This document shows positions 20,037-59,302 of a stretch of DNA of 64,000 nucleotides, piece after piece. Made by a program: the position numbers and the translations under genes. The notes beneath the pieces are model-generated. The model searched no databases, had not been told where the DNA came from, and saw nothing but the letters and a program-made list of their open reading frames with translations. Source of the DNA: Aureibaculum sp. 2308TA14-22 (GTDB taxonomy: Bacteria; Bacteroidota; Bacteroidia; Flavobacteriales; Flavobacteriaceae). The DNA lies in NCBI RefSeq assembly GCF_040538665.1, contig NZ_JBEWXT010000001.1, positions 1,080,501-1,144,500 of the forward strand. The letters run 5' to 3'. Each line of letters opens with the position of its first letter. Within the stretch, counting starts at the first letter, position 1.

Positions 20037-20385
20037 AATTAAACCAAACTGCATACCGCATTCTTCTTAATTCCAATGCTAATTTTTCTTCCATTTCCAA
20101 AGCTTCAGCTCTTGTTTTTATGGGATTGATATGATTGTATAAACTCGGACGTAAATACATACCGTATTTTTCTACAATATTAGAGGAGATTTTATACCCT
20201 TTTTTATTTCTATGACCTGTTTTATGTTGCTTAAAACGTTCTTCTGGTGTCTTGCTTGTCATTCCCACGTATAAACATTGCAACACACCATTAAATTGTG
20301 GATTTGCAGCTCTAAACCGAGTATTCTCAGTAAATACACGCTTGGACAATTCTATCACATAAACATAATATTCGGTTTTTGACAT
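20035..20385 (-). CDS. GIY-YIG superfamily nuclease-like protein
   Basis: I start this at the ATG 20383-20385 (MSKTEYYVYVIEL), because the upstream alternative at 20424 adds unconserved residues and runs toward the operator repeats. The 116-residue product has a GIY-YIG-like layout: YYVYVIEL as strand one, CLYVGMTSKTPEERFKQH with the conserved Gly and Arg, then an EALEMEEKLALELR helix carrying the expected Glu. Such stand-alone domains are usually DNA nucleases or repair proteins. The substrate is unknown. It is divergent from the SatD-family gene, so the 29-bp repeats may control both. Confidence 0.65.
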   Translation of the reverse strand: MSKTEYYVYVIELSKRVFTENTRFRAANPQFNGVLQCLYVGMTSKTPEERFKQHKTGHRNKKGYKISSNIVEKYGMYLRPSLYNHINPIKTRAEALEMEEKLALELRRMRYAVWFN

Positions 20386-44801: not shown

Positions 44802-44886
44802 GGAGAAATGGCAGAGTGGTCGAATGCACTGGTCTTGAAAACCAGCGAGGGTCACACCTCCGGGGGTTCGAATCCCTCTTTCTCCG
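44802..44886 (+). tRNA. tRNA-Ser (anticodon UGA)
   Basis: The 85-nt sequence folds as a class II tRNA. The acceptor stem is GGAGAAA/TTTCTCC with G discriminator. The anticodon stem CTGGT/ACCAG carries loop CTTGAAA (anticodon TGA, reading UCA/UCN serine codons), the variable arm is long, and the T-arm is GGGGG-TTCGAAT-CCCTC. CCA is not encoded. The last 16 bases, plus the C that follows the gene, recur at 45054-45070. A terminator follows. Confidence 0.95.
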
Positions 44887-44893
44887 CAAAATG

Positions 44894-44921
44894 AAACCCA
44901 CAACGAAAGTTGTGGGTTTTT
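44894..44921 (+). terminator. tRNA-Ser terminator
   Basis: AACCCACAAC-gaaa-GTTGTGGGTT is a perfect 10-bp hairpin with a T run, 8 nt after the tRNA gene. Confidence 0.85.
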
Positions 44922-45053
44922 TACTTTATGCCACGCAGAAAGTTTACTTTCTTAAGTACCGGAAAGTAAAAAGCATGCAAGCGATAGCTTGCTGCGGTTT
45001 CTATGTTTGTATTGGATTACCATTTTGGGGTCACGAACTCCAATGGAGTGAGT

Positions 45054-45070
45054 AATCCCTCTTTCTCCGC
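45054..45070 (+). repeat. Second copy of the tRNA-Ser 3' end (putative att site)
   Basis: Seventeen bases identical to 44871-44887. On the island side it continues TGAG, which also follows the third copy (TGAT), so copies 2 and 3 match each other beyond the tRNA. Confidence 0.75.
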
Positions 45071-45092
45071 TGAGTGAATATTAAAATTCACT

Positions 45093-45126
45093 AAAACCTT
45101 GTAAATTAAATGTTTACAGGGTTTTT
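45093..45126 (+). terminator. Terminator-like hairpin after the second tRNA fragment
   Basis: AAAACCTTGTAAA pairs with TTTACAGGGTTTT (one mismatch) around a 7-nt loop, then T-rich sequence. No gene precedes it except the tRNA fragment, which suggests it was once part of a complete tRNA unit. Confidence 0.6.
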
Positions 45127-45168
45127 AATTTTATTTAATTCCATTTATTGGTAATTATTAGCACTATA

Positions 45169-45198
45169 AAGGTGACCTATTCGGTTACCTTTTTTTTA
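45169..45198 (+). terminator. Terminator-like hairpin inside the island start
   Basis: AAGGTGACC-tattc-GGTTACCTT forms 9 bp with one wobble pair and is followed by a T run. Its core CCTATTCGGTTACCT recurs, one base changed, at 58979-58993 near the other island end. Confidence 0.6.
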
Positions 45199-45304
45199 TT
45201 TTTAATTAGTTCACCTTATGTCCATACTTTTTTTAACAATATATTCCATTCTTTATTCATTCTTTAAAAATTCAATTTACGCTGTTTGAGATTGAGGTTT
45301 AATT

Positions 45305-46411
45305 TTATTCTATTAACTTAAAATTCTCACCTAAAACTTCTTTTATCATTATTTGATTGAACTTCTCAGGTTCTTCAAATGCTGGATTATGCGAAGATTT
45401 TTCAAAAGTTATAAATTTTTTCTTTGGTGCTTCTATCATATCAAAATATTCTTTTGCTAAATTGTATGATGTTGTATAATCATAAGCTCCTTGCAATATA
45501 TAAATAGGTAGTCCTAATTCTTTTATAGTTTTTTTCAAATTTGTAGTTAATACTGTTGGGAACATATTATCTATTGATATTTTACTCCCTTTAAAAATGC
45601 TGAGTTTATCCGAAAGTGTATATTCTCTATTAAAAATATATGGTAAATAGATCAAATTAAAATAGTTTTCGGAATTATAAATTATTCCATTAAATTTTAA
45701 AAGCCATTTACGTTGAACTTCAAACCAATTCGCAATTCCAATTTTATTAAGGTTACTCAGATTATATTCTCCTATTTCATTTAATTCTTTTATTGCAATG
45801 GCATTCTCCTGTTCTTTTGCTTTATTCATTACATAATTAAAACTTAGTTTTTCGCTCTCCGATTGGTTCGTCATCTGACCAGTTCCAATAAACGCGTAAT
45901 AATCATCCGGATATTTATGCACTGTACTCAAGCCTAAGTAAGACCCCCAAGAGTGCCCTAAAATAAATATTTTGTGTTGATTAAATCTGATTTTCAAATA
46001 ATTAGTTAGTTCATGAGTGTCTTGAATTAATTGGTCAACGCTTAAACAGGATATCGGGATGTTTTCACTATATGACTTCCCCGCTCCTCGTTGATCCCAT
46101 TGTACTACGGTATAATGTTTTTCAAGAAAACTATTATACTTTCTAAATAAAGGAAGTTCTGATGTTCCAGGTCCACCATGCAATATAAGTAAAATAGGAT
46201 TTTTCTTGTTTTCACCCCTTATTAGAATAAATTGATTTATTCCTCCAATTTTAACATATTTCATTTCGGCTATGCTATTCTCTAGTTTTTTGCCTTGAGC
46301 ATCCTTAAATACAGATGTCTTGCCATGGCTTATTATTAGTAAGACTAAAATAGTAATGCTAACTAAAATCAATATAATTGACAGTATAATTTTTGTACTT
46401 TTCCTTTTCAT
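45305..46411 (-). CDS. Alpha/beta hydrolase, membrane-anchored, prolyl-aminopeptidase-like
   Basis: This 368-residue serine hydrolase has an N-terminal membrane anchor (residues 8-28). The oxyanion motif HGGPG is at 78-82, TVVQWDQRGAGKSYSE follows, and the nucleophile elbow is GHSWGS (Ser154). The acid lies in LQGAYDYTTS and the catalytic His near SSHNPAFEEPEKF. These fit the proline iminopeptidase family S33. The anchor is unusual for classical prolyl aminopeptidases and points to a membrane-bound exported form. It is downstream of the DUF5916 gene by 37 nt in the same direction. Confidence 0.85.
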   Translation of the reverse strand: MKRKSTKIILSIILILVSITILVLLIISHGKTSVFKDAQGKKLENSIAEMKYVKIGGINQFILIRGENKKNPILLILHGGPGTSELPLFRKYNSFLEKHYTVVQWDQRGAGKSYSENIPISCLSVDQLIQDTHELTNYLKIRFNQHKIFILGHSWGSYLGLSTVHKYPDDYYAFIGTGQMTNQSESEKLSFNYVMNKAKEQENAIAIKELNEIGEYNLSNLNKIGIANWFEVQRKWLLKFNGIIYNSENYFNLIYLPYIFNREYTLSDKLSIFKGSKISIDNMFPTVLTTNLKKTIKELGLPIYILQGAYDYTTSYNLAKEYFDMIEAPKKKFITFEKSSHNPAFEEPEKFNQIMIKEVLGENFKLIE

Positions 46412-46448
46412 TTATGTAAATTTTAATGTAATCGGTATCTGTTATTTT

Positions 46449-48665
46449 TTAAAAATGGAAAGTATGGCTGTATTTTAATAAGATGCTTTGACTATTACTG
46501 ACTGGTAATTTTGGAATAACTCTATTAGTATTTTGGTTTAAATCGCCATTATATACCAAATAAAAATCATTACCTTCTTTAGGGTTATATCTTATTCTTA
46601 ATCCTCCAGTAATAGTTTGTGAAACGTTATTATATTGAATTAGACTGCTTACGTTGAGTTTAGTATTTAAAGTATATAGAATATTTACATTACCTAATTG
46701 GACTGTGGTACTTTTATTTTGATTAGGAAATTTTAAATAGTTCAATTGATAATTCCCTTGTACACTCAAATCTGTGGTAATATTTATGAAAGGGGCAAAA
46801 TTTATTGTTGTTTTATTACCCTCGTAAAATCCTCCTGTACCTAAAGTCAAAGAGTACGCAAATTTGTTGGCAGCTGAACTGGATATCGATGCATTTATAC
46901 TATTAAAATTATAATTTCCAGGAGCTATTTCTATGTTTTCGGGAAAATTAAAAGGGTAAATTAATGACTCTTTATCTACAGTTGAAAATATATTGTATGT
47001 CCACCCTAATTTAGTAAGCATTTGAAAACCAAGAATTAAGTTCCTTGATTCTAAACTACCATCCGTATTTCTCCATATAAGTGTGCTATTACTATAAGGT
47101 CCATATTGTGAAATTTTCGATTCTTGTTTCGGAAAAATATTATACGAAAGATTTGAGTTTAATTGACTAAAGTCTCTTCTCGTTTCAAAACCTACTCCAG
47201 GCACGTAATCTTTACCTGCTTTACTATAATTAATGGTATATGTGAACCCTTGCTGAGAACGTTTAGAAATTTCAGCAAATAATTTTGATCTATTTAAATC
47301 CGAATTTTCTTTTTGATCATCAATATAACTTTGAGCCCATTTTAAAGTAATATAATTATCCTTAATGATTCTAACATTAGCATCAATCCCATAAACGCTA
47401 TTATATTTGCCTTGAAAATCGGTTCTGTTCGTTGTAATTAAACCAACTGTAGAGTTTTCGTTTATAATATTTTTCCGAACCCTAAATACAGTAAAATTTT
47501 CCGAATCTATTTCCCCTTTAGAACCTGTTTGCATGGTCAACCCTCCCAGTTCCCATTTCCCAAATTTCCCAATGAGTCTTGCTCCACCATATATATGTGT
47601 TTGTTGTCCTTCAACTATCCCAATTCTTCTACTATGAAATAACTTATCCGATAATCCAAAATCAAAATTAAACAAGCCCGCTCTCTCTTGAAAAAACAGT
47701 CTTTTTTCTGGAAAAAATATGCTTGATCTGGTTAAATTTACTTGTTGATTGTCAGCTTCCACTTGAGCAAAATCAGTATTCACAGTTAAGTCGAGAGTAG
47801 TATTGCTGCCTAAAGAAATTTTTGCATCTAAACCTACCTCTTTTTTGAAATTGTTATTCGCATCGTAGTTTTGGTTATCGATATTGAACTCATTCAACTT
47901 TTCAAAACCAATTAAGACGTAAGGTGTAATATGTATAGGTGTTTTCTTTTTTATATTTTTAAAGCTAAACCTTTGGGTTAGCGAAGGTCTAAAAGAGCTT
48001 CCTGATGACACATCTCTGGGAGGGTAAATATCTGTTTCATCATTTCTTGCCAAGTACCTCCAAGTGGTAATTCCCATAATGACTTCGCCATTTTTCACTT
48101 CAAATGCTAAACTCGAAAATGGAATCTTAATTTCTGCAAACCAACCCAATTTTGTTATAGTCGCAGCAGTTTCCCAATAAGTATTCCAACTTGTATTAAA
48201 AGCATTAGACCCAGTTATATCTCCAGATAATGCCATGTCTAATTTAGAACCTGTTGGTGTTACAAAAAAGGAGAGAGCATTTTCCCTATCATTATAAGTG
48301 TCAATAATTATCCCGCACCATTCGGTATTTTCGGTAAATTCATCTCTCTTTTTAGAATTTGAATTTATTTTTTCTGGCTCATTGTCAAACATTCTCCCTG
48401 ATAAATAAATGAATTCATTGTCGTAGGCAATTCTAATTTCCGTTTTTTGTGTCGGTGCATCTCCTGAATTTGGAACTTTTTGGGTTACCTTTAAAGGTTT
48501 AATAGTTTCCCAAATAGGTTCGTTCACTATTCCATCTACTGTAATTTTGGCATTTATTTTCTGTGCTTCAATTATGGTATTTTGTGATAAAATTGTATGA
48601 TTTGTAAGAATGTAAAGACAAAGTGCTAAAGTTTTTTTGAATAAAAATTTTCTCGTGATGAGCAT
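46449..48665 (-). CDS. DUF5916 outer-membrane protein with CBM9-like N-terminus
   Basis: This 738-residue exported protein has an N-terminal signal peptide (to about SQN, residue 29). A carbohydrate-binding family 9-like domain spans about 35-230 (KITVDGIVNEPIWETIKPLKV; IRIAYDNEFIYLSGRMFDNEPE; LGWFAEIKIPFSSLAF). DUF5916 follows from about 240 to the end, a predicted beta-barrel with alternating strands and a C-terminal Phe (LLKYSHTFHF). It is widespread in Bacteroidota; function is unknown. It likely forms an operon with the hydrolase at 45305-46411. Confidence 0.85.
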   Translation of the reverse strand: MLITRKFLFKKTLALCLYILTNHTILSQNTIIEAQKINAKITVDGIVNEPIWETIKPLKVTQKVPNSGDAPTQKTEIRIAYDNEFIYLSGRMFDNEPEKINSNSKKRDEFTENTEWCGIIIDTYNDRENALSFFVTPTGSKLDMALSGDITGSNAFNTSWNTYWETAATITKLGWFAEIKIPFSSLAFEVKNGEVIMGITTWRYLARNDETDIYPPRDVSSGSSFRPSLTQRFSFKNIKKKTPIHITPYVLIGFEKLNEFNIDNQNYDANNNFKKEVGLDAKISLGSNTTLDLTVNTDFAQVEADNQQVNLTRSSIFFPEKRLFFQERAGLFNFDFGLSDKLFHSRRIGIVEGQQTHIYGGARLIGKFGKWELGGLTMQTGSKGEIDSENFTVFRVRKNIINENSTVGLITTNRTDFQGKYNSVYGIDANVRIIKDNYITLKWAQSYIDDQKENSDLNRSKLFAEISKRSQQGFTYTINYSKAGKDYVPGVGFETRRDFSQLNSNLSYNIFPKQESKISQYGPYSNSTLIWRNTDGSLESRNLILGFQMLTKLGWTYNIFSTVDKESLIYPFNFPENIEIAPGNYNFNSINASISSSAANKFAYSLTLGTGGFYEGNKTTINFAPFINITTDLSVQGNYQLNYLKFPNQNKSTTVQLGNVNILYTLNTKLNVSSLIQYNNVSQTITGGLRIRYNPKEGNDFYLVYNGDLNQNTNRVIPKLPVSNSQSILLKYSHTFHF

Positions 48666-48779
48666 AATACGTTTTATTAATTAGTAATTAAATTTTTTAA
48701 AATAAGGTCGCCCTATTAAATAGATTCTAGTCATTGGTTCTAAGATTTTATTCAAAGTGTTTTGTTAATTTCTTTAGAA

Positions 48780-49232
48780 TTAACCATCCAAAGATTTACC
48801 TTTTATAAAAACCAATACCGTAGCTATAGCCAAGATTAAAGAAGCAGCATAATAAATATTCATTTTCTCTCCATAGTAAAAAATGGATACGCCAATGGAT
48901 GTGGTTATAATTGCTAGAATGGCATAAAGAGTATAAGAGTTGGCTCCATATCCCCTGTACAAAAAATAAAGGAAAACATTAAGAATTAACATTCCTACTC
49001 CGGTCATTGCAAACCATTTAATGTTTCCAATAGCATAACTATATAATTGTTCTGTTTTATAAAAGAATGCAATTACAAATAAACCTACTGCGGCAAATAG
49101 CAATGAAAATGCTCCAAAGAAAAACGGATTACTATAATTACTAGCGTTTTTTTGACCTACGGTAACCATTGCGTTTCCAATGGATGCTGCTAATGCTAAT
49201 AAAAAAGGTATAAGTATTACTGGAATTTTCAT
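48780..49232 (-). CDS. Small EamA/DMT-type transporter protein
   Basis: This 150-residue protein has five membrane segments, one EamA half (PVILIPFLLALAASIGNAMV; FFFGAFSLLFAAVGLFVIAFFY; IKWFAMTGVGMLILNVFLYFLY; YTLYAILAIITTSIGVSIFYYGE; YYAASLILAIATVLVFIKG). Single-domain DMT proteins act as dimers in export of small molecules. It is encoded 1 nt after a GNAT acetyltransferase and opposite an Lrp/AsnC regulator, which suggests amino-acid-linked export. This is inferred. Confidence 0.7.
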   Translation of the reverse strand: MKIPVILIPFLLALAASIGNAMVTVGQKNASNYSNPFFFGAFSLLFAAVGLFVIAFFYKTEQLYSYAIGNIKWFAMTGVGMLILNVFLYFLYRGYGANSYTLYAILAIITTSIGVSIFYYGEKMNIYYAASLILAIATVLVFIKGKSLDG

Positions 49233-49233
49233 G

Positions 49234-49752
49234 TTAAAACGTTTTAGTCATTACTTCATAATCCGCTTTGAGGTTCTCGTATTCATAATGATATTTTGTA
49301 GTTTTTTCAAATCCATATTTTTCATAGAATTTAATTGCTTTATCATTTTTATCCCAAACGGCTAACCAGAGCGTTTTAATTCCTAAATTTTGCACTTCTT
49401 CAAATAAAATATCTTGCATTTTTTTTCCTATTTTATTCCCGACATAATCGTTTAGTAAGTAAATTTTTTGCAGTTGTGCTGGTCTTTTATCAGAAATTGA
49501 TTCATATGGAGAGTATTTCTTCAATTTTGCATAACCTACAGGGAGCTTATCCGCAAATGCAATCCAAAAAACATTATTTTCTTTAGTTATGCTACTTCTG
49601 ATTTTTTCAACCGAAAAAGTATTTTTAAAATAATTTCTTAATACTTTCTCATCCGTCCAAAAATGCCCAAAAGCCTCTCTAAAACTTACTCGCCCTAATA
49701 ATGCCAAGATTACATCATCTTTAATGGTTGCCTTTCTTATTATTAAATCCAT
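49234..49752 (-). CDS. GNAT family N-acetyltransferase
   Basis: This 172-residue acetyltransferase has the GNAT core: ENNVFWIAFADKLPVGYAKLKK, LQKIYLLNDYVGNKIGKKMQDIL (acetyl-CoA-binding motif A, with Gly-x-Gly replaced by NKIGKK) and KTLWLAVWDKNDKAIKFYEKYGFEK. It is encoded 1 nt before a DMT-type protein and divergent from Lrp. The substrate is unknown, perhaps an amino acid or amine. Confidence 0.85.
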   Translation of the reverse strand: MDLIIRKATIKDDVILALLGRVSFREAFGHFWTDEKVLRNYFKNTFSVEKIRSSITKENNVFWIAFADKLPVGYAKLKKYSPYESISDKRPAQLQKIYLLNDYVGNKIGKKMQDILFEEVQNLGIKTLWLAVWDKNDKAIKFYEKYGFEKTTKYHYEYENLKADYEVMTKTF

Positions 49753-49786
49753 AATATGTTGTTTTAAATAGTTAAATTTTGTTATT

Positions 49787-49794
49787 CAAAGATA
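49787..49794 (-). promoter_or_regulatory. -7 promoter box for the GNAT-DMT pair
   Basis: On the minus strand this is TATCTTTG, 34 nt before the start at 49752. The 49753-49988 gap is almost pure AT and probably holds the Lrp binding sites. Confidence 0.5.
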
Positions 49795-49951
49795 TTAATC
49801 ATTATTAATTTAAAAAATTATATAATTAGGTTAATATGTTAAAAAACGTTTATATATTAATAAAAAATTTATTATTAGATAACAATATTAATTAGAAATG
49901 AAAATAAAAATGTTTTATTTTATAAAAAATTGATATTTATTAAAAAAACAT

Positions 49952-49959
49952 TATATTTG
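49952..49959 (+). promoter_or_regulatory. -7 promoter box for the Lrp gene
   Basis: TATATTTG matches TAnnTTTG 29 nt before the ATG at 49989. Confidence 0.55.
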
Positions 49960-49988
49960 TAATTAAATAATTAATAATACTTTATATT

Positions 49989-50453
49989 ATGAATATAGAT
50001 AAAACAAATTGGTTAATTTTAGAAGAATTACAAAAAGATGGAAGAATGCCATTAAAGGAAATTTCACGTAGGGTGGGAATCTCTTCTCCTGCTATTTCTG
50101 AAAGAATGCAAAAAATGGAAGAAGCTGGTATTATAAATGGATACCAAGCTAATGTTAATTTAAAAAAATTAGGCTACCCTATGGGAGTTTATATTTCTGC
50201 TAAAATTAGATTTGGTCAAGCAGAAAAATTTTACGAGTTAATAAAAAATACTCCAGAAATAATGGAATGCCATAAGTTAACAGGAAATGATTGTTTATTA
50301 ATTCGGGCTAATGTAAAGAATACTGATGATTTAGAAAGGTTAAATACTGGTTTATCGCATTATGGAGAACTTACAACATCGCTTGTTTTGTCTTCAGTGG
50401 TTGATAAAAGAATTTATAACTATTCTGATAAAAGATTGGAAATGGTTGTTTAA
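49989..50453 (+). CDS. Lrp/AsnC family transcriptional regulator
   Basis: This 154-residue regulator has an N-terminal helix-turn-helix (NWLILEELQKDGRMPLKEIS, RRVGISSPAISERMQKMEEAG) and a C-terminal RAM/ligand-binding domain (IMECHKLTGNDCLLIRANV). It is divergent from the GNAT-DMT pair across an extremely AT-rich 236-bp gap, which is the classic layout for an Lrp-type regulator and its target. The ligand is probably an amino acid; this is inferred. Confidence 0.9.
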   Translation: MNIDKTNWLILEELQKDGRMPLKEISRRVGISSPAISERMQKMEEAGIINGYQANVNLKKLGYPMGVYISAKIRFGQAEKFYELIKNTPEIMECHKLTGNDCLLIRANVKNTDDLERLNTGLSHYGELTTSLVLSSVVDKRIYNYSDKRLEMVV

Positions 50454-50469
50454 TTAGTCAAAAAAGACC

Positions 50470-51258
50470 TCAACTATTTTCTAGCCATTTTCTAAAATTA
50501 GAAGTTTTACTATTTGACGTGTATAATGTGGCTTTCGGTTTATCTAGGCTTATTGCAATTTTATTTTTACTGTAAACACTAAATTTTTTGATGCTATGGA
50601 CACTTACGATTTCACTTCTATTAATTCTAAAAAAATCTTTAGGGTTAATTAAGTTTTCAATTGCAGTTAACGAATAATTTAATATATGTTTCCGTCCAGA
50701 ACTATCAATAGCTAAAACAAAATCTCCCTGAGCCTGAAAATATGAAATATCATTAGTTTTTAATAAAATGATACCTTCATGTTTTTTTACTGAAAATTTG
50801 GTTTTATAATTTTGTTCGTTATTTTCAACCAATGTTTTTAATTTAGTAATTAAGTCGCCAGAAATAATATGGTTTTGCGTTTTATTTACTTCACTAAATA
50901 ATTGTATGTATTTGTGCCAAGCACTCTCGAATTGATCTTTCGTATAAGGTTTTAATAAATATGCAATGCCATTAGTGCTAAAGGCATCTACATAAAATTT
51001 ATCATATGCTGTACAAAATATAATAGGGCATTTTGGTTGAAATGTATCATAAATTTTAAAGACGTTATCATCTATTAATTCAATATCCGAGAAAATAAGA
51101 TCAATGTCATTATTTTCTCTTAAATATGCTATACCATCGACAACACTTCGTTTCCAAGTAATCTTTGAATTTGGACTAAACTCTTTTATTAAATCTATTA
51201 GTTTTTCTCCCGCACGTTGTTCATCTTCAAATACCACGATGTTTAAAATTTTGCTCAT
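50470..51258 (-). CDS. LytTR-family response regulator
   Basis: This 262-residue response regulator has a receiver domain (acidic pocket FEDEQ at 10-14, phospho-acceptor Asp58 in LIFSDIELI, conserved Lys in YLLKPYT) and a C-terminal LytTR DNA-binding domain (ISYFQAQGDFVLAIDSSGRK; FFRINRSEIVSVHSIKKFSV). Such proteins bind direct repeats of about 9 bp spaced 12 bp apart. A matching 21-bp-period repeat lies upstream of the kinase gene (52363-52399). Its start overlaps the kinase stop by 4 nt, so the two are translationally coupled. Confidence 0.92.
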   Translation of the reverse strand: MSKILNIVVFEDEQRAGEKLIDLIKEFSPNSKITWKRSVVDGIAYLRENNDIDLIFSDIELIDDNVFKIYDTFQPKCPIIFCTAYDKFYVDAFSTNGIAYLLKPYTKDQFESAWHKYIQLFSEVNKTQNHIISGDLITKLKTLVENNEQNYKTKFSVKKHEGIILLKTNDISYFQAQGDFVLAIDSSGRKHILNYSLTAIENLINPKDFFRINRSEIVSVHSIKKFSVYSKNKIAISLDKPKATLYTSNSKTSNFRKWLENS

Positions 51259-52301
51259 TGTAATTCTTTTATTAATGGTAATGTAACCGTAAATTTTGTA
51301 CCATCTTGAATTGAAATGTCTCTATATGTTAATAGTTTATACCTCGACTTTAGATTTCTCAACCCCGTTCCTAAACTATTTGCCACGTTCGTTTTTAATT
51401 GTTTAATATGACTTATTGAAAGTCCATTTTTGTCAATTTGAATGACAACTTTTAGAGGATTTTCAATAGTTCCTTGATTATGTTTTACAACATTTTCAAT
51501 AAGACTTTGTAATGATGCTGGGGGAATTAAATAATGGTATAAATTATATAAATTATTTAATTTTTCGAATTGATATGCTTTACCGTAACGCTCTTCAATT
51601 AAATAAATGTAATCCTCCATAAAACTCCATTCTTCTTGCAAGTTTACTATATCATTTTCCATATTCATTATCAAATAGCGGTACATTTTTGATAGTTTAT
51701 GCAAATATTCTTTTGCCTTATTTTTATCTCTATCTATTAAGTCATCTAAAGCGTTTAAATTATTAAATAAAAAATGAGGGTTTATATGAGATTTTAAAAC
51801 ATTCAATTCCATTTGTATTTTTTCTGTTTTTAGCTGTTCTATAACTCGGTTATTTATTATCCAATCCTTTGTAAATCGATAGGCAAACGAAAATAATAAT
51901 GAAAACAATAAAACACTAGGTGCACCGAATAATATACTGTCCCTACTTAAAAATTCTTCAATAACGGCATCAATAGTTAAGACCGTCTTAAACTTAATTA
52001 ACAAAACGATTAATACTCTTAATAGTTCTAAAATAAGCGATCCTACAACAACAATTACAACATATAGCCCAGCCTTTCTGTTTTTCAGATATTTTGGTAT
52101 CATCCAAAATGCATTTAAATAAAATAAGAACGGGAATAACAATGCTAAAATTGGTGAGGGAGTATTGGGTCTTATTGTTTTATTTAACCACTCATTTGTC
52201 CATTCTACATTTATAAATGCAAAATAGAACGACCAAAACAGCAGATGTATAAAGAGCTCTCCATATTTTAAAACAAAATTTTTTATCACCAGAATTTTCA
52301 T
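51255..52301 (-). CDS. LytS/YehU-type sensor histidine kinase
   Basis: This 348-residue inner-membrane kinase has four membrane segments (about 15-30, 50-68, 78-103, 124-142) with little extracellular sequence, so the signal is probably sensed within or at the membrane. The phospho-acceptor His176 is in SHINPHFLFNNLN, the ATPase N box in LIENVVKHNQG and the G box in SLGTGLRNLKSRYKLL. It overlaps the response-regulator gene by 4 nt and is divergent from the ABC/peptidase operon. Short, loop-poor kinases of this type are often partnered with transporters. Confidence 0.9.
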   Translation of the reverse strand: MKILVIKNFVLKYGELFIHLLFWSFYFAFINVEWTNEWLNKTIRPNTPSPILALLFPFLFYLNAFWMIPKYLKNRKAGLYVVIVVVGSLILELLRVLIVLLIKFKTVLTIDAVIEEFLSRDSILFGAPSVLLFSLLFSFAYRFTKDWIINNRVIEQLKTEKIQMELNVLKSHINPHFLFNNLNALDDLIDRDKNKAKEYLHKLSKMYRYLIMNMENDIVNLQEEWSFMEDYIYLIEERYGKAYQFEKLNNLYNLYHYLIPPASLQSLIENVVKHNQGTIENPLKVVIQIDKNGLSISHIKQLKTNVANSLGTGLRNLKSRYKLLTYRDISIQDGTKFTVTLPLIKELQ

Positions 52302-52713
52302 CGAAGTTTAAGACTAGGCATAGGCTAATCTATAAAATATCTTAAATAATTGTACTTAAAAATAGCTTAATTTAGGATTTATGTAGCTGAATGTAGGATA
52401 ATAATCTTTAAACAAACACTTAATCACTTTCTAATATTTTTATTGTCCATAAATTATTCAAAGGGAAAAATCATTAATTCAACCTCAATTTTCCCGTGAT
52501 AGATGAATTCTTTTTTTTAAGATAATGCGATAAAGCTACTTTCGATTTAAAATTAATCATACTCTAATGAAGTTTGCAACATTATTAAAAATTATGTAAT
52601 AAATGTGACTTGATAAATTTTATTTAAACCGCACCGTAAAGACTTAAAATAATAAATTATATCTAAGCAAAATTTAAAAGAAGGAAATCAGTATAACCAA
52701 AAAAAATACCATA
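52302..52713. other. 412-bp divergent control region
   Basis: This very AT-rich gap separates the two-component genes from the ABC/peptidase operon. It holds the 21-bp-spaced direct repeat at 52363-52399 and no ORF. I found no clean TAnnTTTG box for either direction, which fits activator-dependent promoters. Confidence 0.5.
52363..52399. promoter_or_regulatory. Candidate LytTR-binding direct repeat
   Basis: TAGCTTAATTTAGGAT (52363-52378) and TAGCTGAATGTAGGAT (52384-52399) agree at 14 of 16 positions and are exactly 21 bp apart, two helical turns. The core 9-mers are ATTTAGGAT and ATGTAGGAT with a 12-bp spacer, the geometry bound by LytTR regulators. Confidence 0.55.
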
Positions 52714-53601
52714 ATGAACTTAAAAATTGAAAATTTAACTAAAACATACAAAAATGGCATAAAGGCAATAGATAACCTTAATCTTGAGATAGGGACTGGA
52801 ATGTTCGGATTATTAGGGCCAAACGGAGCAGGAAAGTCTTCGTTAATGAGAACTATTGCAACAATTCAAAAGCCTGATAGTGGTTCGATTACCTTTAATG
52901 ACATAGATGCCATTAAAGATGAAATGAGTTTAAGAAAAGTATTAGGTTACTTACCTCAAGATTTTGGTGTATACCCTAAAGTTTCTGCCGAAAATCTTTT
53001 GGATTATTTTGCCATTTTAAAAGGAATTTCTTCCAAAAAAGAAAGAACAATAATAGTTGAAGAAGTTTTACAACTTACAAATTTATACGATATGCGAAAA
53101 AAACATGTAAGTGGATATTCAGGGGGTATGAGGCAACGCTTTGGTATAGCACAATTATTATTAAACAACCCACAATTAATAATTGTTGACGAACCCACAG
53201 CCGGTTTAGATCCAGCTGAGCGTAATCGATTTCTAAATGTTCTACGCGAAATAAGTACTAATAATACGGTAATATTTTCAACACATCTAGTTGATGATGT
53301 AAAAGATTTGTGTAATAATTTAGCCATTATTAACGGCGGTAGAATACTAAAAACAACTACACCGTCTGATTCAGTTGAAGAAATTGAAGATTTTATTTGG
53401 GTAAAAAAAATCGAGAACAATGAATTAGATGAAATTGAAAAAATTTTCTCTGTGTTATCTACTAATTTCAATGAGGATAATAGCTTAAACGTAAGAGTTT
53501 TTGCCACTAATAAGCCTGATGCCTCATTCTCAAAGGCAAAAGCCAATTTAGAAGATGTTTACTTTATCGCATTGCGGGAAGATCAATTGAACGAAAATTA
53601 G
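52714..53601 (+). CDS. ABC transporter ATP-binding protein
   Basis: This 295-residue ATPase has Walker A GPNGAGKSS (35-43), Q-loop in LGYLPQDFG, signature YSGGMRQRFGIAQLL, Walker B LIIVDEPTAGLDP and an H-loop in STHLVDDV. The last 75 residues are an extra domain typical of CcmA/NatA-type export ATPases. It drives the permease encoded 50 nt downstream. Confidence 0.93.
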   Translation: MNLKIENLTKTYKNGIKAIDNLNLEIGTGMFGLLGPNGAGKSSLMRTIATIQKPDSGSITFNDIDAIKDEMSLRKVLGYLPQDFGVYPKVSAENLLDYFAILKGISSKKERTIIVEEVLQLTNLYDMRKKHVSGYSGGMRQRFGIAQLLLNNPQLIIVDEPTAGLDPAERNRFLNVLREISTNNTVIFSTHLVDDVKDLCNNLAIINGGRILKTTTPSDSVEEIEDFIWVKKIENNELDEIEKIFSVLSTNFNEDNSLNVRVFATNKPDASFSKAKANLEDVYFIALREDQLNEN

Positions 53602-53651
53602 TTTTCACTTATGCGAAAAAAGCATCTCCAAACTTATAAAAATCAAAAATT

Positions 53652-56600
53652 ATGACAACTAAAATATACTCATACGAGCTTAAATATTGGTTAAAGAAAC
53701 CAACGACATACATATATATATTTGTTTTCTTTGCTTTTGCTTTAGTAACCATGCTAGGAACAGGAGGTTTCTTTGATGGTCCTTCAACATCAACGAAACA
53801 ATTAAAACATTTAAACTCTCCTCTGGAAATAAATTCTTTATTACAGTTTTTTAATAAATTCTTTATGTTCCTTTTACCAGCAATTATCGGTACAACTATT
53901 TATAGGGATTATAAAAGTAGAATTCATAACATTCTGTACTCATTTCCAATAAGAAAGAGAAACTACTTATTTGGTAAGTTTTTAAGCGGATTTTCAATAG
54001 TTGCTTTAATTTCATTATTTGTAATAATAGCGTTATTTATTGGTGAACAAATGTTAGGTGTAAATAATCCAAAAATTGGAGAATTTAATATGTTAGGTTA
54101 TTTAAGTGCTTACTTTATTTACACGCTACCAAACTTATTTTTTTATGGATTACTCGTGTTTATGGGAGTTGCCATAACACGAAACATTTATACAGGTTTT
54201 GTAATAGTCATAGTATTGTTTTTAATCCAGATTATTATTGAAAATTTGCTTATTGGTAACTCTTTCTTAATAGCATTACTTGATCCTTTTGCACAAAATA
54301 CTACATTGTATGAAACAAAAATGTGGACTCTTTCTGATAAAAACTCGAAATTAATCCCCATTTCAGGCGTAGTACTATATAATAGGTTGTTTTGGATGGT
54401 TTCTATTTCGATTCTATTTATACTTTTTTATAAAAAATTTGCCCTAGTTCAGGAAGCCTTAAGTTTTAGACTTAAAAAGGCCAAGGGCCTAAGGATGGTA
54501 AAAAACAACTTCCAAAGCTCAGGTAAGGTGTATGTGTCTAAAGTAAAATACAATTTTAGCTTTTGGAATCAATTGAATGCAACGTTTAAGATTTCCAATT
54601 TAGAATTTAAGTATATTTTTAAAAACCCTTTATTCTATATTCTGGCGGTATTTGGAATGCTAACAATCGTATTTATACTTACAAAAGTAACCAATAAGGG
54701 TGATTTAATATTACTTCCTGTAACAAGAATAATGATATCTGGACCGGCATTTTTCTATACTATGGTTGTTACAATAATTACTTTTTTATTTTCAGGAATG
54801 CTTGTGCATAGAGCTAAGACATCTAGAATGGATCAATTAATTGATATGAGTCCAATCTCTAACTGGTCCTTAATGTTATCAAAAGTAGTCGCAATAATTA
54901 AAATACAGTTCGTGCTTTTGGTAATTTTGATGTTTTGTGGTATTGCCATACAGATATATAACAATTACTTCCATTTTGAATTAGGGCTTTACACATTTCA
55001 TTTGTTTGTCGTCATTTTCCCAATATTGATTGTGTGGGCATTTACATCGGTATTTATGCATACTTTGATACCAAAACTATACTTAAGTTTATTTATCCTC
55101 ATAATTGGATTATTCAGTGTCGGTAGTTTAGATCTAATAGGTATTGATACTAACTTATTAAAATTCAATACACCTCCTAAAGCAAATTATAGTGATTTAA
55201 ATGGCTATGGTAACGGTCTTTTTGGACATACGCTGGTTCAAATGTATTGGTTTGTTTTTGGTTGCATATTAATGATTTTGTCTTACCTATTATGGAAAAG
55301 AGGTATTACATTTTCATTTAAGGAAAGAGTTTTACAAATGAAGGCACGCTTTACAGGAAAAATTCAAATTTTTACAAGTATTTTTTTAACGGCCTTTATT
55401 ACTTTGGGACTTTCAATATATAAATCAGAAGGTAAAATTCAATTTTCTCAGAAAAAACAAAATGCAATACTATCTAACTTCCATAAGAAATTTGATAAGT
55501 ATAAAAATATTAAACAACCAAAAATAACAGCAGTTAAAATAAACATGAATATTTTTCCTAGGAGTAATACTTTTAACGCAAACGGTACATATACAATTGT
55601 CAATAATTCCGAAAAAAATATTGATACACTACTCATAAAAACCGGTTTTGATGAAAACACCAATTATACAATAAGCGAATCAAACAAGGTTTTAATTGAA
55701 GATAAAATGATGCAATTCAAAGTTCACGTGTTAAAAAAACCGTTAGTTCATCATGATACCTTAACACTAAATTTCGACATTGAAAACAAAGAAAACTCGG
55801 TATTTGAAAGAAATTCAAGTGCCCTTAAAAATGGTACATATATTCTTAATGACGCACTTCCAAGGCTTGAGTATATTGGTGATGAATTTAAAAAACATCC
55901 TTCAGATAGTACCGTTACTAAATACCATTATACAGCATCGGATAGCGACTTAGTTGATTTTGAAGCAATCATAAGCACAAGTGCTGATCAAATAGCAATT
56001 GCACCGGGATATCTGCAAAAAAAATGGAAAGAAAATGGTCGTAGTTATTTTCATTATAAAATGAATAAAAAAATAAAATTTCTATTCGCATTTAATTCGG
56101 GAAAATTTGAAATAAAGAAGGAAAAGCATAAAGGCGTAAATCTTGAAATATATCATCACAAAAACCATAATTATAATAATGATAAAATAATTGATGGTTT
56201 GAAGGCAGCAATAGACTACAATACAAAATACTTTAGTGATTATCAACATCAAGAGGCACGTGTTATAGAATTTCCTCTTTCAGAGGGAACTTACGCAACT
56301 ACGATGGCTAATTCAATTCCTATGTCAGAAGTTAGGTTTATAATAAATTCAAATGGGGATACCGATAAGATGGACTTATCTTTTTATATGCCGGCACATG
56401 AATTAACACATCAATGGTGGGGAAACCAAGTCGTTTCGGCTGATGCTTTAGGGGCGAAAATGCTTACCGAGAGTATAACTGAATATATAAGTTATAAAAT
56501 TTATAAAAAATATTTTGGTGAAGAAAAAGGAATGAGTTTTTTAAAATTTCAGCGAAGTAGATATTTGAGGGGGAGAACCCGTGAGGATGGTACTGAAAAT

Positions 56601-57152
56601 CCATTGTACCTTGTAAATGAAGACCAAATGTATATTTCTTATGGTAAAGGTACAATTGCTTTTAATACTTTGAGTCACTATTTGGGAGAAGAGAATCTAA
56701 ACAAAATTCTTAAAAATTTTCTAGACTCATATAAATTTAGAACCAACAAATATCCAACTTCAATTGATTTGATTAATGAATTGAAAACGTCGGTACCAAA
56801 AAATTTACAATACTTAATAATTGATATGTTTGAAACAATAACATTTTATGAAAATAAAATTAATAGTGCAAAAATGGTATCTAGGAATAAAGAAAAATTT
56901 ACAATTGAAGTTGATTTAGAAGTTTTAAAGTATAGAAATGGTAATGTAGGTGCTCCCTTAAAACTTAATGATTATATCGAGCTCGGATTCTATACCAGCA
57001 GCGGAAAATTAATTTCTATTGAAAAGAAAAAAATAATGAAGGCCAATAGTAAATTATTTTTTCAACTAGATGTTCATCCGTCTAAAGTTATTCTTGATCC
57101 CAATTATTTAGTAATTGATAAAAACATTGATGATAATCATTTTGAGCTCTAA
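53652..57152 (+). CDS. ABC-2 permease fused to an M1-type metallopeptidase
   Basis: This 1166-residue protein is a two-part permease. The first half has about twelve membrane segments in two six-helix ABC-2 sets (about 20-260 and 325-590). The second half is an extracytoplasmic beta-rich M1 region with the zinc motif HELTHQWWG (His916-His920). The third ligand Glu in KMLTESITEY comes after 19 residues, one more than the canonical HExxH-x18-E. The GxMEN exopeptidase motif is replaced by GTYATTMANSIPMSE. The catalytic domain probably faces the periplasm. The peptidase may cleave peptides exported by or reaching the transporter. The fusion type is known in Bacteroidota, but its substrate is not. 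Confidence 0.9.
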   Translation: MTTKIYSYELKYWLKKPTTYIYIFVFFAFALVTMLGTGGFFDGPSTSTKQLKHLNSPLEINSLLQFFNKFFMFLLPAIIGTTIYRDYKSRIHNILYSFPIRKRNYLFGKFLSGFSIVALISLFVIIALFIGEQMLGVNNPKIGEFNMLGYLSAYFIYTLPNLFFYGLLVFMGVAITRNIYTGFVIVIVLFLIQIIIENLLIGNSFLIALLDPFAQNTTLYETKMWTLSDKNSKLIPISGVVLYNRLFWMVSISILFILFYKKFALVQEALSFRLKKAKGLRMVKNNFQSSGKVYVSKVKYNFSFWNQLNATFKISNLEFKYIFKNPLFYILAVFGMLTIVFILTKVTNKGDLILLPVTRIMISGPAFFYTMVVTIITFLFSGMLVHRAKTSRMDQLIDMSPISNWSLMLSKVVAIIKIQFVLLVILMFCGIAIQIYNNYFHFELGLYTFHLFVVIFPILIVWAFTSVFMHTLIPKLYLSLFILIIGLFSVGSLDLIGIDTNLLKFNTPPKANYSDLNGYGNGLFGHTLVQMYWFVFGCILMILSYLLWKRGITFSFKERVLQMKARFTGKIQIFTSIFLTAFITLGLSIYKSEGKIQFSQKKQNAILSNFHKKFDKYKNIKQPKITAVKINMNIFPRSNTFNANGTYTIVNNSEKNIDTLLIKTGFDENTNYTISESNKVLIEDKMMQFKVHVLKKPLVHHDTLTLNFDIENKENSVFERNSSALKNGTYILNDALPRLEYIGDEFKKHPSDSTVTKYHYTASDSDLVDFEAIISTSADQIAIAPGYLQKKWKENGRSYFHYKMNKKIKFLFAFNSGKFEIKKEKHKGVNLEIYHHKNHNYNNDKIIDGLKAAIDYNTKYFSDYQHQEARVIEFPLSEGTYATTMANSIPMSEVRFIINSNGDTDKMDLSFYMPAHELTHQWWGNQVVSADALGAKMLTESITEYISYKIYKKYFGEEKGMSFLKFQRSRYLRGRTREDGTENPLYLVNEDQMYISYGKGTIAFNTLSHYLGEENLNKILKNFLDSYKFRTNKYPTSIDLINELKTSVPKNLQYLIIDMFETITFYENKINSAKMVSRNKEKFTIEVDLEVLKYRNGNVGAPLKLNDYIELGFYTSSGKLISIEKKKIMKANSKLFFQLDVHPSKVILDPNYLVIDKNIDDNHFEL

Positions 57153-57193
57153 TACGAAGAACTCTTTTATAATTATAAAGTTTAAAAATATAA

Positions 57194-58108
57194 ATGTTTA
57201 AAGAAATGAGAACTAAGTTTTTAATTACGTTATTATTTATAACTTCATTTATCGAAGGCCAAGAAATGAAATTCACATACGATAATTTTGACAATGAAGT
57301 TTTAAAATATAAGCCAATACAAAGGGAAAATGTTTCTGATGAGGATTACAAAAATGGTTTATTTAAATTAAATGAGACTAAATTATCAGTAAAATATAAT
57401 GCTTCAAATTTAAATAGTGGTGATTTTTGGAATATCACTATGGCATTTGTAAATCTAAAAGAACCTAAATCAAATATCAAAATCGCATTTACGAAGGCCA
57501 TTAGTTTTAGTAATAATAATGTTTGCTTATACGTTGATAAATTTGGACCATCCGGTTTGGATAAAATAATCACGGAAACATTCAATAACTTCTATAAAGG
57601 TTGTAAAAAAGAACGCACAAAAAAAACTGTACTTGATTTAGAAGCTTATTCTGAAAAAGGAAACTTCAATTTGGACTTAATAGTGTTAATTAATTATGTT
57701 AAATCTAACGATCAATATTACAGACAAATGAAAGGTAAATATTACGAGAACCCAATACAACTTAAAAAACAAAGAAAACTTGATCTTAAAAATCAACGAA
57801 TTATTGATTCTCTATTCAATATTCATCAAACTTATATAGGCAGAACTTTAGTGGGAGAAGAATTTACGAATGTTATGTGGAGTGTTATTCAACATTCTAA
57901 TGTAAAAATGATGGAAAAATACCTGCCTATTGTATACGAAGCTTATACCAAAAAAGAAATAGAGGTAGTAGCATTAAAAATGTTAATCGATAGATTCTAC
58001 GGACTGAAATATGGCTATCAAATTTTTGGAAGTCAAAATGGTTTTGGATTTGAAATGGCTGAACCAAGAAAAAGAAAAGAAATAATTGAAAAATATAAAA
58101 TTCATTAA
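57194..58108 (+). CDS. Secreted protein of unknown function, module member
   Basis: This 304-residue exported protein has an N-terminal signal peptide after a short basic stretch (RTKFLITLLFITSFIEGQ). The ATG at 57206 is an equally good start. The mature part is a mix of beta and helical sequence (FWNITMAFVNLKEPKSNIKIAF; KGKYYENPIQLKKQRKLDLKNQ). It lies 42 nt after the permease-peptidase gene, in the same direction, so it is probably co-expressed. I recognise no domain. It could be a substrate-binding or accessory subunit. Confidence 0.6.
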   Translation: MFKEMRTKFLITLLFITSFIEGQEMKFTYDNFDNEVLKYKPIQRENVSDEDYKNGLFKLNETKLSVKYNASNLNSGDFWNITMAFVNLKEPKSNIKIAFTKAISFSNNNVCLYVDKFGPSGLDKIITETFNNFYKGCKKERTKKTVLDLEAYSEKGNFNLDLIVLINYVKSNDQYYRQMKGKYYENPIQLKKQRKLDLKNQRIIDSLFNIHQTYIGRTLVGEEFTNVMWSVIQHSNVKMMEKYLPIVYEAYTKKEIEVVALKMLIDRFYGLKYGYQIFGSQNGFGFEMAEPRKRKEIIEKYKIH

Positions 58109-58318
58109 AATTTAGATTGATCTGTTTTTTATAAAAAGAATTATAATCAAAACTAGCTGATTATAAATATTGATAATAAATAACGCCTTATGTATTAAAT
58201 TACATTTTACTCAAATGACAAAAACCCGAATAATGAATTCGAAAAATTGAGGAAAAATAATTTGGTAAAAGTAAAATTATCGCTGGATTGAAAATGGCTA
58301 CTAAAAATAGAACATAAA

Positions 58319-58957
58319 TTGAAATTTGACAAGAAAAAATACAAAATATATACATGGAAGCATTGGGTTAATTTACATTGGATACTAAATCCAGGAATGG
58401 CTATTAACGAGTTAGTTTTTGGTCAACGTATACCAAAATTGAGCATAGTACACAAAACTTTCGACAAAAATAAATCGGAAAGAAGATATGTTTATTGCCC
58501 TAATTGCTATACGCTTCATGATGTAAGAATTTGGGAAATTCAAAATGGTGTAGCCCTAAAAAATTGGTTTGGACTTTATTGTTCGAATTGTGGCAAAATT
58601 ATTCCTTGTTTAATTAACATCCTGAGTTTAACCATTCTTATTTTTACTTACCCAGTTAGAGTACTATTTATAAAAAAACTTAAATCGAAATGGTTAAAAA
58701 AACAAGTAAAAAGATATGAGCGTATAGACTTTAAAAAGTTACAAAATCCTCTTGATAAGAAAACTTGGATAAAACTCGGTTTAAAGTGGGGTGCAATTAT
58801 GTTTTTTATACTAACATTTGTTTTCCCTTATTTTGATTGGGTTGGAGGAACTTTTAAAAGCATATTTCTTATTCCACCTCTTTGGGGTATGCTCGGCCAT
58901 AAATTTAGAGGTTCTTTGAAATTCTTTACTAAAAAGATCAAAGGTAAAAAAGAATAA
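58319..58957 (+). CDS. Zinc-ribbon membrane protein of unknown function
   Basis: This 212-residue protein starts at TTG 58319. The N-terminal half has a CxxC-type zinc ribbon: VYCPNCYTLHDVRIWE and LYCSNCGKIIPC hold four (or five) metal-ligand cysteines about 27 residues apart. One membrane segment follows (ILSLTILIFTYPVRVLF), then a basic cytoplasmic stretch (KLKSKWLKKQVKRYE), then a second membrane pair (WGAIMFFILTFVFPYFDW). Function is unknown. It is the last gene of the island and may be part of the same module. Confidence 0.6.
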   Translation: MKFDKKKYKIYTWKHWVNLHWILNPGMAINELVFGQRIPKLSIVHKTFDKNKSERRYVYCPNCYTLHDVRIWEIQNGVALKNWFGLYCSNCGKIIPCLINILSLTILIFTYPVRVLFIKKLKSKWLKKQVKRYERIDFKKLQNPLDKKTWIKLGLKWGAIMFFILTFVFPYFDWVGGTFKSIFLIPPLWGMLGHKFRGSLKFFTKKIKGKKE

Positions 58958-58978
58958 ACGTTAATAAAATACAAGATA

Positions 58979-58993
58979 CCTATTAGGTTACCT
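58979..58993 (+). repeat. Island-end copy of CCTATTNGGTTACCT
   Basis: CCTATTAGGTTACCT differs at one base from 45176-45190. Both copies lie within 110 bp of a tRNA-Ser fragment, so they may be parts of the integration boundary. Confidence 0.45.
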
Positions 58994-59053
58994 AATCATT
59001 TTGTTGATAACTATTTAATTCAATACTAGTCTATTAAGAAATTGCGGGTAGTT

Positions 59054-59069
59054 CCTCTTTCTCCGCTGA
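59054..59069 (+). repeat. Third copy of the tRNA-Ser 3' end (putative att site)
   Basis: CCTCTTTCTCCGCTGA is identical to 45058-45073, including the four bases beyond the tRNA end. Weaker similarity extends 10 bp further upstream. Confidence 0.7.
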
Positions 59070-59099
59070 TCAAGCATAACTTTAGAACAGCTTGAAAAT

Positions 59100-59131
59100 A
59101 AAATCCATCAAGTTTACTTGAGTGGGATTTT
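59100..59131 (+). terminator. Hairpin after the third tRNA fragment
   Basis: AAAATCC..CAAG-ttta-CTTG..GGGATTTT forms an interrupted hairpin ending in T. Like copies 1 and 2, the tRNA fragment is followed by a terminator-like fold. Confidence 0.5.
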
Positions 59132-59302
59132 CAGTTTTAAGTTGTCAATTCAGCCAGAATTGAAAGTTATATTTGCAGTATATGGTTTGAGGGATCACGA
59201 TCCCGAGTACTCGGGGGAGTAATCTCCAGTTTACTTTCGTAATTAAGGAAAAAAATAGACATGCCAAGTATGCCCTAGCACTTGAAAATCATAATTTTAT
59301 TT

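Follow-up and report, generated by a model that had tools for sequence, protein, structure and literature searches.

The window analysed in this study is a stretch of 64,000 nucleotides from the genome of Aureibaculum sp. 2308TA14-22 (contig NZ_JBEWXT010000001.1; this genome is G000 below), and it contains, downstream of a tRNA-Ser(UGA) gene, an interval at 45058-59066 that is bounded by copies of the 3′ end of this gene. The interval has the same 13-bp core at both ends, carries sequences of a family type just inside these ends, is foreign in composition, and contains no recombinase gene. We consider it highly probable that the interval is a cargo-only island flanked by attachment (att) sites, that a copy of the tRNA-Ser 3′ end was the point at which site-specific recombination inserted it, and that related integrases, acting in trans or in cis, move it. 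A first-pass annotation, made from the letters of the window alone, had proposed that the interval was acquired at the tRNA 3′ end, and its composition, its conserved ends and the arrays found in relatives bear this out. Islands that have no integrase are easily dismissed as dead; the window island shows how cargo DNA may spread without an engine of its own.

The tRNA-Ser gene and the ends of the island

The following features, all on the plus strand, define the locus.

44802..44887: tRNA-Ser(UGA), the attachment gene (ARAGORN; Rfam RF00005, 61.4 bits; ARAGORN/Rfam end at 44886/7)
44871..44887: repeat copy 1, the tRNA 3′ end, with the core CCTCTTTCTCCGC at 44875-44887 (pattern search)
44888..45053: flank related to the DNA after tRNA-Ser in several congeners; it has a terminator hairpin at 44893-44920 (congener alignment; fold z -5.8)
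45054..45070: repeat copy 2, the left junction of the island, attL (exact repeat; left-end model)
45071..45131: hairpin and terminator (45093-45125) on the left end of the island (z -6.2, 0 of 200 shuffles; compensatory changes in 8 left ends)
45168..45192: putative left arm site GGTGACCTATTCGGTTACC, including a 15-mer at 45175-45189 (held-out left-end model; 15-mer match)
58978..58992: putative right arm site ACCTATTAGGTTACC, with ATTAGG 72 bp before the core (identical to the left arm at 14 of 15 bases; spacing)
59054..59066: core copy 3, the right junction of the island, attR (pattern search)
59067..59201: sequence after the island, homologous to the sequence directly 3′ of tRNA-Ser in G002 (96 of 131 identical)

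The 17-bp sequence AATCCCTCTTTCTCCGC at 44871-44887 occurs a second time, without any difference, at 45054-45070, exactly as the first-pass annotation had described. The third copy had been described as a 16-bp core plus TGA; the sequence CCTCTTTCTCCGCTGA is indeed located at 59054-59069, but only its first 13 bp (59054-59066) are common with the tRNA, and the 16 bp that include TGA are common to copy 2 and absent from the tRNA. The distance between copies 2 and 3, given as about 14 kb, comes to 14.0 kb. With up to two mismatches allowed, the 13-mer core has exactly three matches in the window, every one of them perfect, and three matches were reached in 1 of 100 shuffles. In the whole genome (3,571,993 bases), the 13-mer occurs three times on the forward strand and never on the reverse strand, with all of the occurrences inside 14.2 kb, and a backwards control pattern has no occurrence. 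The far end of the interval therefore carries the direct repeat of the tRNA 3′ end by which tRNA-integrated islands are recognised.

Both ends carry further conserved sequences. A left-end model (R3) built from seven ends of three congeners, with the window excluded, matches 45058-45201 with 47.3 bits (E=1e-13), and its two other matches in the window reach 13.5 and 6.9 bits. The 15-mer ACCTATTNGGTTACC has perfect matches in the window at the two island ends only; ACCTATT[C/A]GGTTACC is found at both ends and has no further mismatch-free occurrence in the window. Two of the four occurrences of the 12-mer ATTMGGTKACCT in the genome are at the island ends, and its control has none. Right ends have in common an ATTNGGT motif 70-72 bp before the core, and left ends have in common a hairpin and terminator. 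Of 8 left ends aligned, 6 also have an ATTCGG-type site, about 110-120 bp from where the core starts. The spacing from motif to core is 72 bp in the window and 71-73 bp in 23 of the 23 loci where both were found, among 30 loci (L106-L135) that were selected with the right-end model R1; the window's own end (L108) is one of the 23, some loci are near-copies of one another (L129 and L130, for example), and the pattern used failed to find motif and core together in 7 of the 30. The cores of these loci are mostly tRNA-Ser ends, and those of L117 and L134 are the tRNA-Lys end that is seen in L155. Because the ten sequences of R1 include the right end of the window, its 56.5-bit match there is not independent. 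The island thus has what is found in islands bearing a PF17293 integrase, namely a conserved left end with arm and terminator and a right arm 71-73 bp before the core, the held-out profile of the right end being weak.

In the terminator stem of the 8 left ends, 15 cells changed on both sides compared with 5.2 in shuffles, and 94.2% of the cells are paired compared with 38-56% when the stem is slid. Five stem pairs have a change on both sides, a value reached by 33 of 500 shuffles (0 to 3 for the other measures). By these measures, the stem after the core has been kept by compensatory changes. Strong left-end matches that do not include the core part were also observed at L047:3566-3688 (83.8 bits) and L039:8984-9095 (63.6 bits), about 220 bp after a tRNA-end core; these are possibly hidden unit starts in which the core decayed or was never there.

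The GC content is 0.284 in 45071-59053, compared with 0.338 to the left of the tRNA and 0.360 to the right of 59070. When tetranucleotides were compared inside and outside, as the first-pass annotation had proposed, the three 7-kb windows that lie at least 93% inside the island had the highest distances of 28 (0.2119-0.2258), and the remaining 25, some of which lie partly inside it, ranged from 0.1045 to 0.1886. By both measures, the interval is compositionally foreign.

The 183-bp spacing of copies 1 and 2 had been taken as a hint of two acquisition events; this view was not sustained, since the spacing is mostly the usual tRNA-Ser flank of congeners. From end to end, the 172 bp between the two copies align at 74% with the sequence after tRNA-Ser in G007 and G010, neither of which has a second core copy, and 152 of the 172 positions align with G005 at 75%. 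Because the spacer matches the tRNA-Ser flank of congeners, copy 2 and not copy 1 is the left junction, and the island was inserted at a second core that lies beyond the usual flank. The far end of the array in G029 has a 174-bp piece, enclosed by two cores, with a similar layout by eye; BLAST did not match it to the spacer of the window. The idea that the 183-bp piece is the scar of a GIY-YIG gene was dropped, since BLAST, which reported matches longer than 45 bp at E up to 0.01 against a database that included the GIY-YIG loci of G000 (L004, L005, L008 and L009), hit none of these four. A separate observation is that the tRNA-Ser flank of G007, G008 and G010 (L054, L055, L056) contains a short repeated unit, TTTTTATGTTTG ... 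GGGATCACGA ... GAGTAATCC and variants.

At the other end, the first-pass annotation had proposed to look in related flavobacteria for an empty site that joins the tRNA end directly to the sequence after the island. Such a junction exists in G002, where the tRNA core is directly joined to a homologue of 59067-59201 (96 of 131 aligned bases identical); the junction score is 99, compared with a maximum of 34 in 300 shuffles and with 29-54 for eight other post-core tails. However, the homology covers only about 135 bp and another unit end follows about 220 bp after the junction, and G002 therefore presents an empty site for the window island and not an empty locus. The gene to the right of the island (62121-63404, an aminotransferase) has no syntenic counterpart in 16 congeners, so that the right flank of the island is unmatched and this gene was rejected as its marker. 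A DUF2188 gene was also rejected as a fixed right flank, since congeners differ in where it lies with respect to the tRNA and in which direction it is oriented.

The cargo of the island

The island contains 11 open reading frames (ORFs) of at least 90 aa, whose products were assigned with Pfam where a family is named.

45305..46411, minus strand: alpha/beta hydrolase (S33-like)
46449..48665, minus strand: DUF5916 protein
48780..49232, minus strand: EamA-family transporter
49234..49752, minus strand: GNAT acetyltransferase
49989..50453, plus strand: Lrp/AsnC regulator, 54% to a gene in a G004/G005 unit
50470..51258, minus strand: LytTR response regulator
51255..52301, minus strand: histidine kinase (His_kinase)
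52714..53601, plus strand: ABC transporter ATPase
53652..57152, plus strand: ABC-2 permease fused to M1 peptidase, 1166 aa
57194..58108, plus strand: no family (nothing in Pfam, NCBIfam, PHROGs or PADLOC)
58319..58957, plus strand: no family (nothing in Pfam, NCBIfam, PHROGs or PADLOC)

The predicted cargo is therefore metabolic and regulatory. PADLOC matches of the cargo were rejected as evidence of defence, as they are generic matches to an ABC ATPase, a GNAT protein and a regulator. The fusion of an ABC-2 permease with an M1 aminopeptidase (53652-57152) had a single relative in a scan of a contig collection, a Colwellia metagenome-assembled genome at 25% identity.

The first-pass annotation saw no integrase, and the searches agree with it. 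Pfam identifies neither an integrase nor a transfer family among the 11 island ORFs, and a search for the tyrosine recombinase family PF00589, made in 9 genomes, found six places in G000, all outside the window. The serine recombinase family PF00239 is absent from each of the five unit-bearing genomes, G000 included, and PF03432, the single relaxase family searched, is absent from G000 (it matched 1 of 14 control genomes). The integrase that tRNA-integrated islands have as their own was thus not found in this island.

Related units and integrases

The 13-mer core is present in 33 of 60 genomes searched, the window's own included. Six genomes have at least two copies within 50 kb on one contig and on one strand per genome (G000, 3; G002, 3; G004, 4; G005, 6; G016, 2; G029, 3); in the other multi-copy genomes the copies lie on separate contigs, except in G038, where they are widely spaced and differ in strand. 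In G002, G004, G005 and the more distant G029, the copies enclose units of 5.6 to 47.6 kb, and two to four integrase-less units are stacked in three congeners. Among the 155 ORFs of at least 90 aa in 11 units of five genomes, the window's unit included and two units common to G004 and G005 counted twice, none matches an integrase profile. Because this profile misses a divergent PF00589 protein (L175), the absence of integrases rests on the PF00589 search, in which none of the places found in the unit-bearing genomes lies inside a unit. A sample of nine cargo proteins from the units of G002 and G005 includes RND transporters, acetate kinase, phosphotransacetylase, a molybdopterin-binding protein, a PLP decarboxylase, a DUF5916 protein, an S41 peptidase and a TPR protein.

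In the 3.7 kb upstream of the tRNA, G004 and G005 are 80.65% identical (3,005 of 3,726), and this upstream homology of G005 ends, by BLAST, exactly at the end of the tRNA core. One unit is 99.95% identical over 17.5 kb (17,539 of 17,548), its neighbour is identical at 13,620 of 13,842 positions, and past the last core the identity falls to 231 of 240 (96.25%). The first 5.7 kb of the neighbour unit are also 97.4% identical between G002 and G005 (5,558 of 5,704). As judged from these alignments, units appear to move between species. Within the 13.8-kb unit, the first 8 kb of G004 and G005 are 96.1-98.3% identical, and the last 5.8 kb reach 99.9-100%; this shift inside the unit indicates that homologous recombination inside units also plays a part. 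An arm-like motif was noticed in a G002 unit near the end of its match to the G004/G005 unit (L045, joined position about 40290), and it is possible that it marks a lost internal junction.

The right-end model R1 has matches in 79 of 397 family genomes. Among the 115 matches listed, 33 right ends were checked (the 33 strongest without that of G391, plus one of G033), and 16 of them have a PF17293 integrase on the same strand at most 110 kb upstream; two have one downstream, 260 and 391 bp away, which is the start of the next unit. The units of G002, G004, G005 and G014 are outside the 115 matches and would count as having no integrase; integrases were counted by contig, and some on contigs without a listed right end were omitted, which leaves the count unchanged. 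PF17293 is present in 33 of 34 genomes searched, and the single match among 14 control genomes was in a Bacteroides, in keeping with a host from the Bacteroidota.

A tyrosine integrase of 401-415 aa follows tRNA-Ser or a copied core in G033, G052, G360, G366 and G010 (1.2 kb off in G010), and that of G033 has the domains Arm-DNA-bind_5, Phage_int_SAM_5 and Phage_integrase. The left-end model, which was derived from cargo-only units, scores 46-58 bits on the left ends of the elements of G033, G360 and G366 (L118, L144, L148). The integrases group in one clade (97/99 support) with the exception of that of G052, so that the clade has four of the five; identities within the clade are 66-84%, and the best of the 21 PF00589 proteins from G000, G002, G004 and G005 reaches 43% over 400 aa. 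Among five elements of the same genus that have an integrase at tRNA-Pro, a similar arm follows the tRNA in four (L142, which belongs to G000, L152, L153 and L154), and not clearly in L141. Since the window island has no integrase after the tRNA, it is at most a non-autonomous member of the PF17293 integrase islands.

Short PF17293 frames occur upstream of some right ends (G022:C34:89869-90120, 117 aa; G307:C3:404881-405114, 124 aa; G073:C3:184704-184949, 245 aa), and these are possible intermediates between integrase-bearing and cargo-only islands. The genome of the window itself contains about 53 kb between two tRNA-Leu(UAA) genes (G000:C1:134318-187262; L136:4319-4405, L138:16808-17263), with a PF17293 integrase at one end and, near the other end, a right-end sequence that resembles that of the window and has a truncated core. 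This block may be a second island in the same genome.

Mobility and alternative explanations

According to the mechanism that we propose, the ATTNGGT-type motifs inside the ends would be arm-type sites to which a tyrosine integrase binds through an Arm-DNA-bind_5 domain. The enzyme would be supplied by an integrase-bearing relative of the island, either in trans or in cis after the relative has landed beside it. It would recombine the core of a circularised island with the tRNA 3′ end or with a duplicate of the core, and because of this mode of joining, all units of a stack would have one orientation. In the units examined, the core is immediately followed by a terminator hairpin, and the terminator of an arriving unit may re-terminate a tRNA that has been separated from its own. 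Homologous recombination within shared units would also reshuffle the arrays.

Several results weigh against this proposal. The clade of tRNA-Ser integrases has no member in G000, G002, G004 or G005, as judged from all 21 PF00589 proteins, and G249 has a strong right-end match and no PF17293 match. The left-end model is weak on the integrase element of G052 (20.6 bits) and has no match on that of G010, and the arm motif is missing from two G005 left ends among the 8 aligned. The held-out right-end model gives the right end of the window (58954-59069) 15.8 bits, the same as the tRNA's own core; the right arm therefore rests on other evidence. In addition, the homology at the empty junction covers only about 135 bp, neither a circle nor an empty site was seen in the window strain, and the 99.9% tract of G004 and G005 starts within a unit and not at a core, which resembles homologous recombination.

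The last of these results is also part of the case for the strongest alternative, according to which the island is decayed and immobile: the integrase with which it arrived would have been lost, and any movement that still occurs would be due to homologous recombination of the flanking DNA. No integrase lies inside the island and no clade member in its genome, and the truncated integrase frames of 117, 124 and 245 aa show that such genes can be found in shortened form upstream of right ends of the family. However, the ends keep their core, arms, spacing and terminator, no integrase remnant was found among the 155 ORFs of the 11 units, the identity of G004 and G005, 99.95% in the unit, falls to 96.25% immediately beyond the right core, and units recur beside different neighbours. 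We would place decay somewhat below an even chance.

Phages too use tRNA 3′ ends as targets and have ends of the tyrosine-integrase type. The island could accordingly be the remnant of a prophage or of a phage satellite at tRNA-Ser, since it shares this target and such ends, and tycheposons are counted among the proposed phage satellites in the available part of one account (PMC11389934). Against this, 10 of the 11 island proteins were tested with PHROGs and no structural or packaging family was found; the matches are to an acetyltransferase, an esterase, an ABC transporter, a regulator, proteins of unknown function and, for the ABC ATPase, one DNA-metabolism (SbcC-like) family. The metabolic and regulatory cargo likewise makes a phage origin very improbable. 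That the repeats are due to chance or to an old internal rearrangement with no insertion is scarcely credible, since the core is short (13 bp) but 3 of its 3 genome-wide copies lie in one place on one strand, and the composition step, the matched arms and the same architecture in congeners would all be left unexplained.

Movement of a cargo-only island by related integrases could be part of a broader economy of cargo cassettes in this bacterial family, in which recombinase-less multi-gene units of 5.6-47.6 kb, each with one portable end, are arranged head to tail behind a tRNA and moved in trans, including by integrases that reside at tRNA-Pro and tRNA-Lys genes. The portable end would consist of the tRNA-end core, a replacement terminator and an arm "address"; because this address would be common across targets and only the core would differ, integrases at other tRNA genes (Pro, Lys) could act on it. 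If true, such a system would be the large-cassette counterpart of an integron array. We offer this extension tentatively and regard it as rather unlikely.

The island can be compared with several known systems, as far as the available parts of the cited accounts describe them. In Dehalococcoides, tandem units lie downstream of the RNA gene ssrA with 20-bp repeats of its 3′ end, and 15 of the ssrA islands have no integration module and were suggested to be cis-mobilizable (PMC3146451). The tandem units bounded by repeats of an RNA-gene end, the conserved motif beside the repeat and the variable cargo are common to both systems. However, the Dehalococcoides islands have a tmRNA as their target and a serine recombinase, located near the left edge, as their enzyme (PMC3146451), whereas the window island lies at tRNA-Ser and the integrases related to it are tyrosine recombinases that contain an arm-binding domain. 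Like cis-mobilizable elements (CIMEs), which are formed by accretion, the island keeps attL and attR, at the sequence level, and stacks in tandem without genes for integration or transfer (PMC5704250), as no recombinase, PF03432 relaxase (in G000) or Pfam transfer family was found. Unlike for CIMEs, the window shows no parent integrative and conjugative element, and different species have units that are nearly identical.

The additive flexible islands at tRNA genes also consist of cassettes marked by repeated tRNA 3′ ends, which range from <1 kb to tens of kb (PMC10872708, PMC7771536). Their available descriptions name neither common arm sequences nor a common terminator, whereas both are present here and are tied to an integrase family. 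Tycheposons are similarly cargo-carrying elements bordered by a tRNA (PMC10872708, PMC11389934); as described in the parts available, they contain a tyrosine recombinase, and the window island has none. The 10K island of Riemerella anatipestifer, which is counted among the Flavobacteriaceae (PMC9745183), has the same general mechanism, shown experimentally for a tyrosine integrase at tRNA-Arg (PMC6764341). By its description, that island differs from the window island in its own integrase, a 53-bp repeat and another tRNA (PMC6764341). Tandem tRNA-Ser islands of the present kind were not found in the literature seen, as judged from titles and the opening of abstracts and with subscription papers poorly covered, which makes this weak evidence of novelty.

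Because the ends are recognisable and resemble those of integrase-bearing islands, and because near-identical units occur in species that are 80.65% identical upstream of the tRNA, these units provide a testable case for the spread of engine-less cargo between species. With the end models such units can be searched for directly, whereas island finders that rely on an integrase would be expected to miss them. Elsewhere in the window and outside the island, a weak GIY-YIG match (24.6 bits) was observed at 20053-20280 on the minus strand, in a frame of 149 aa.

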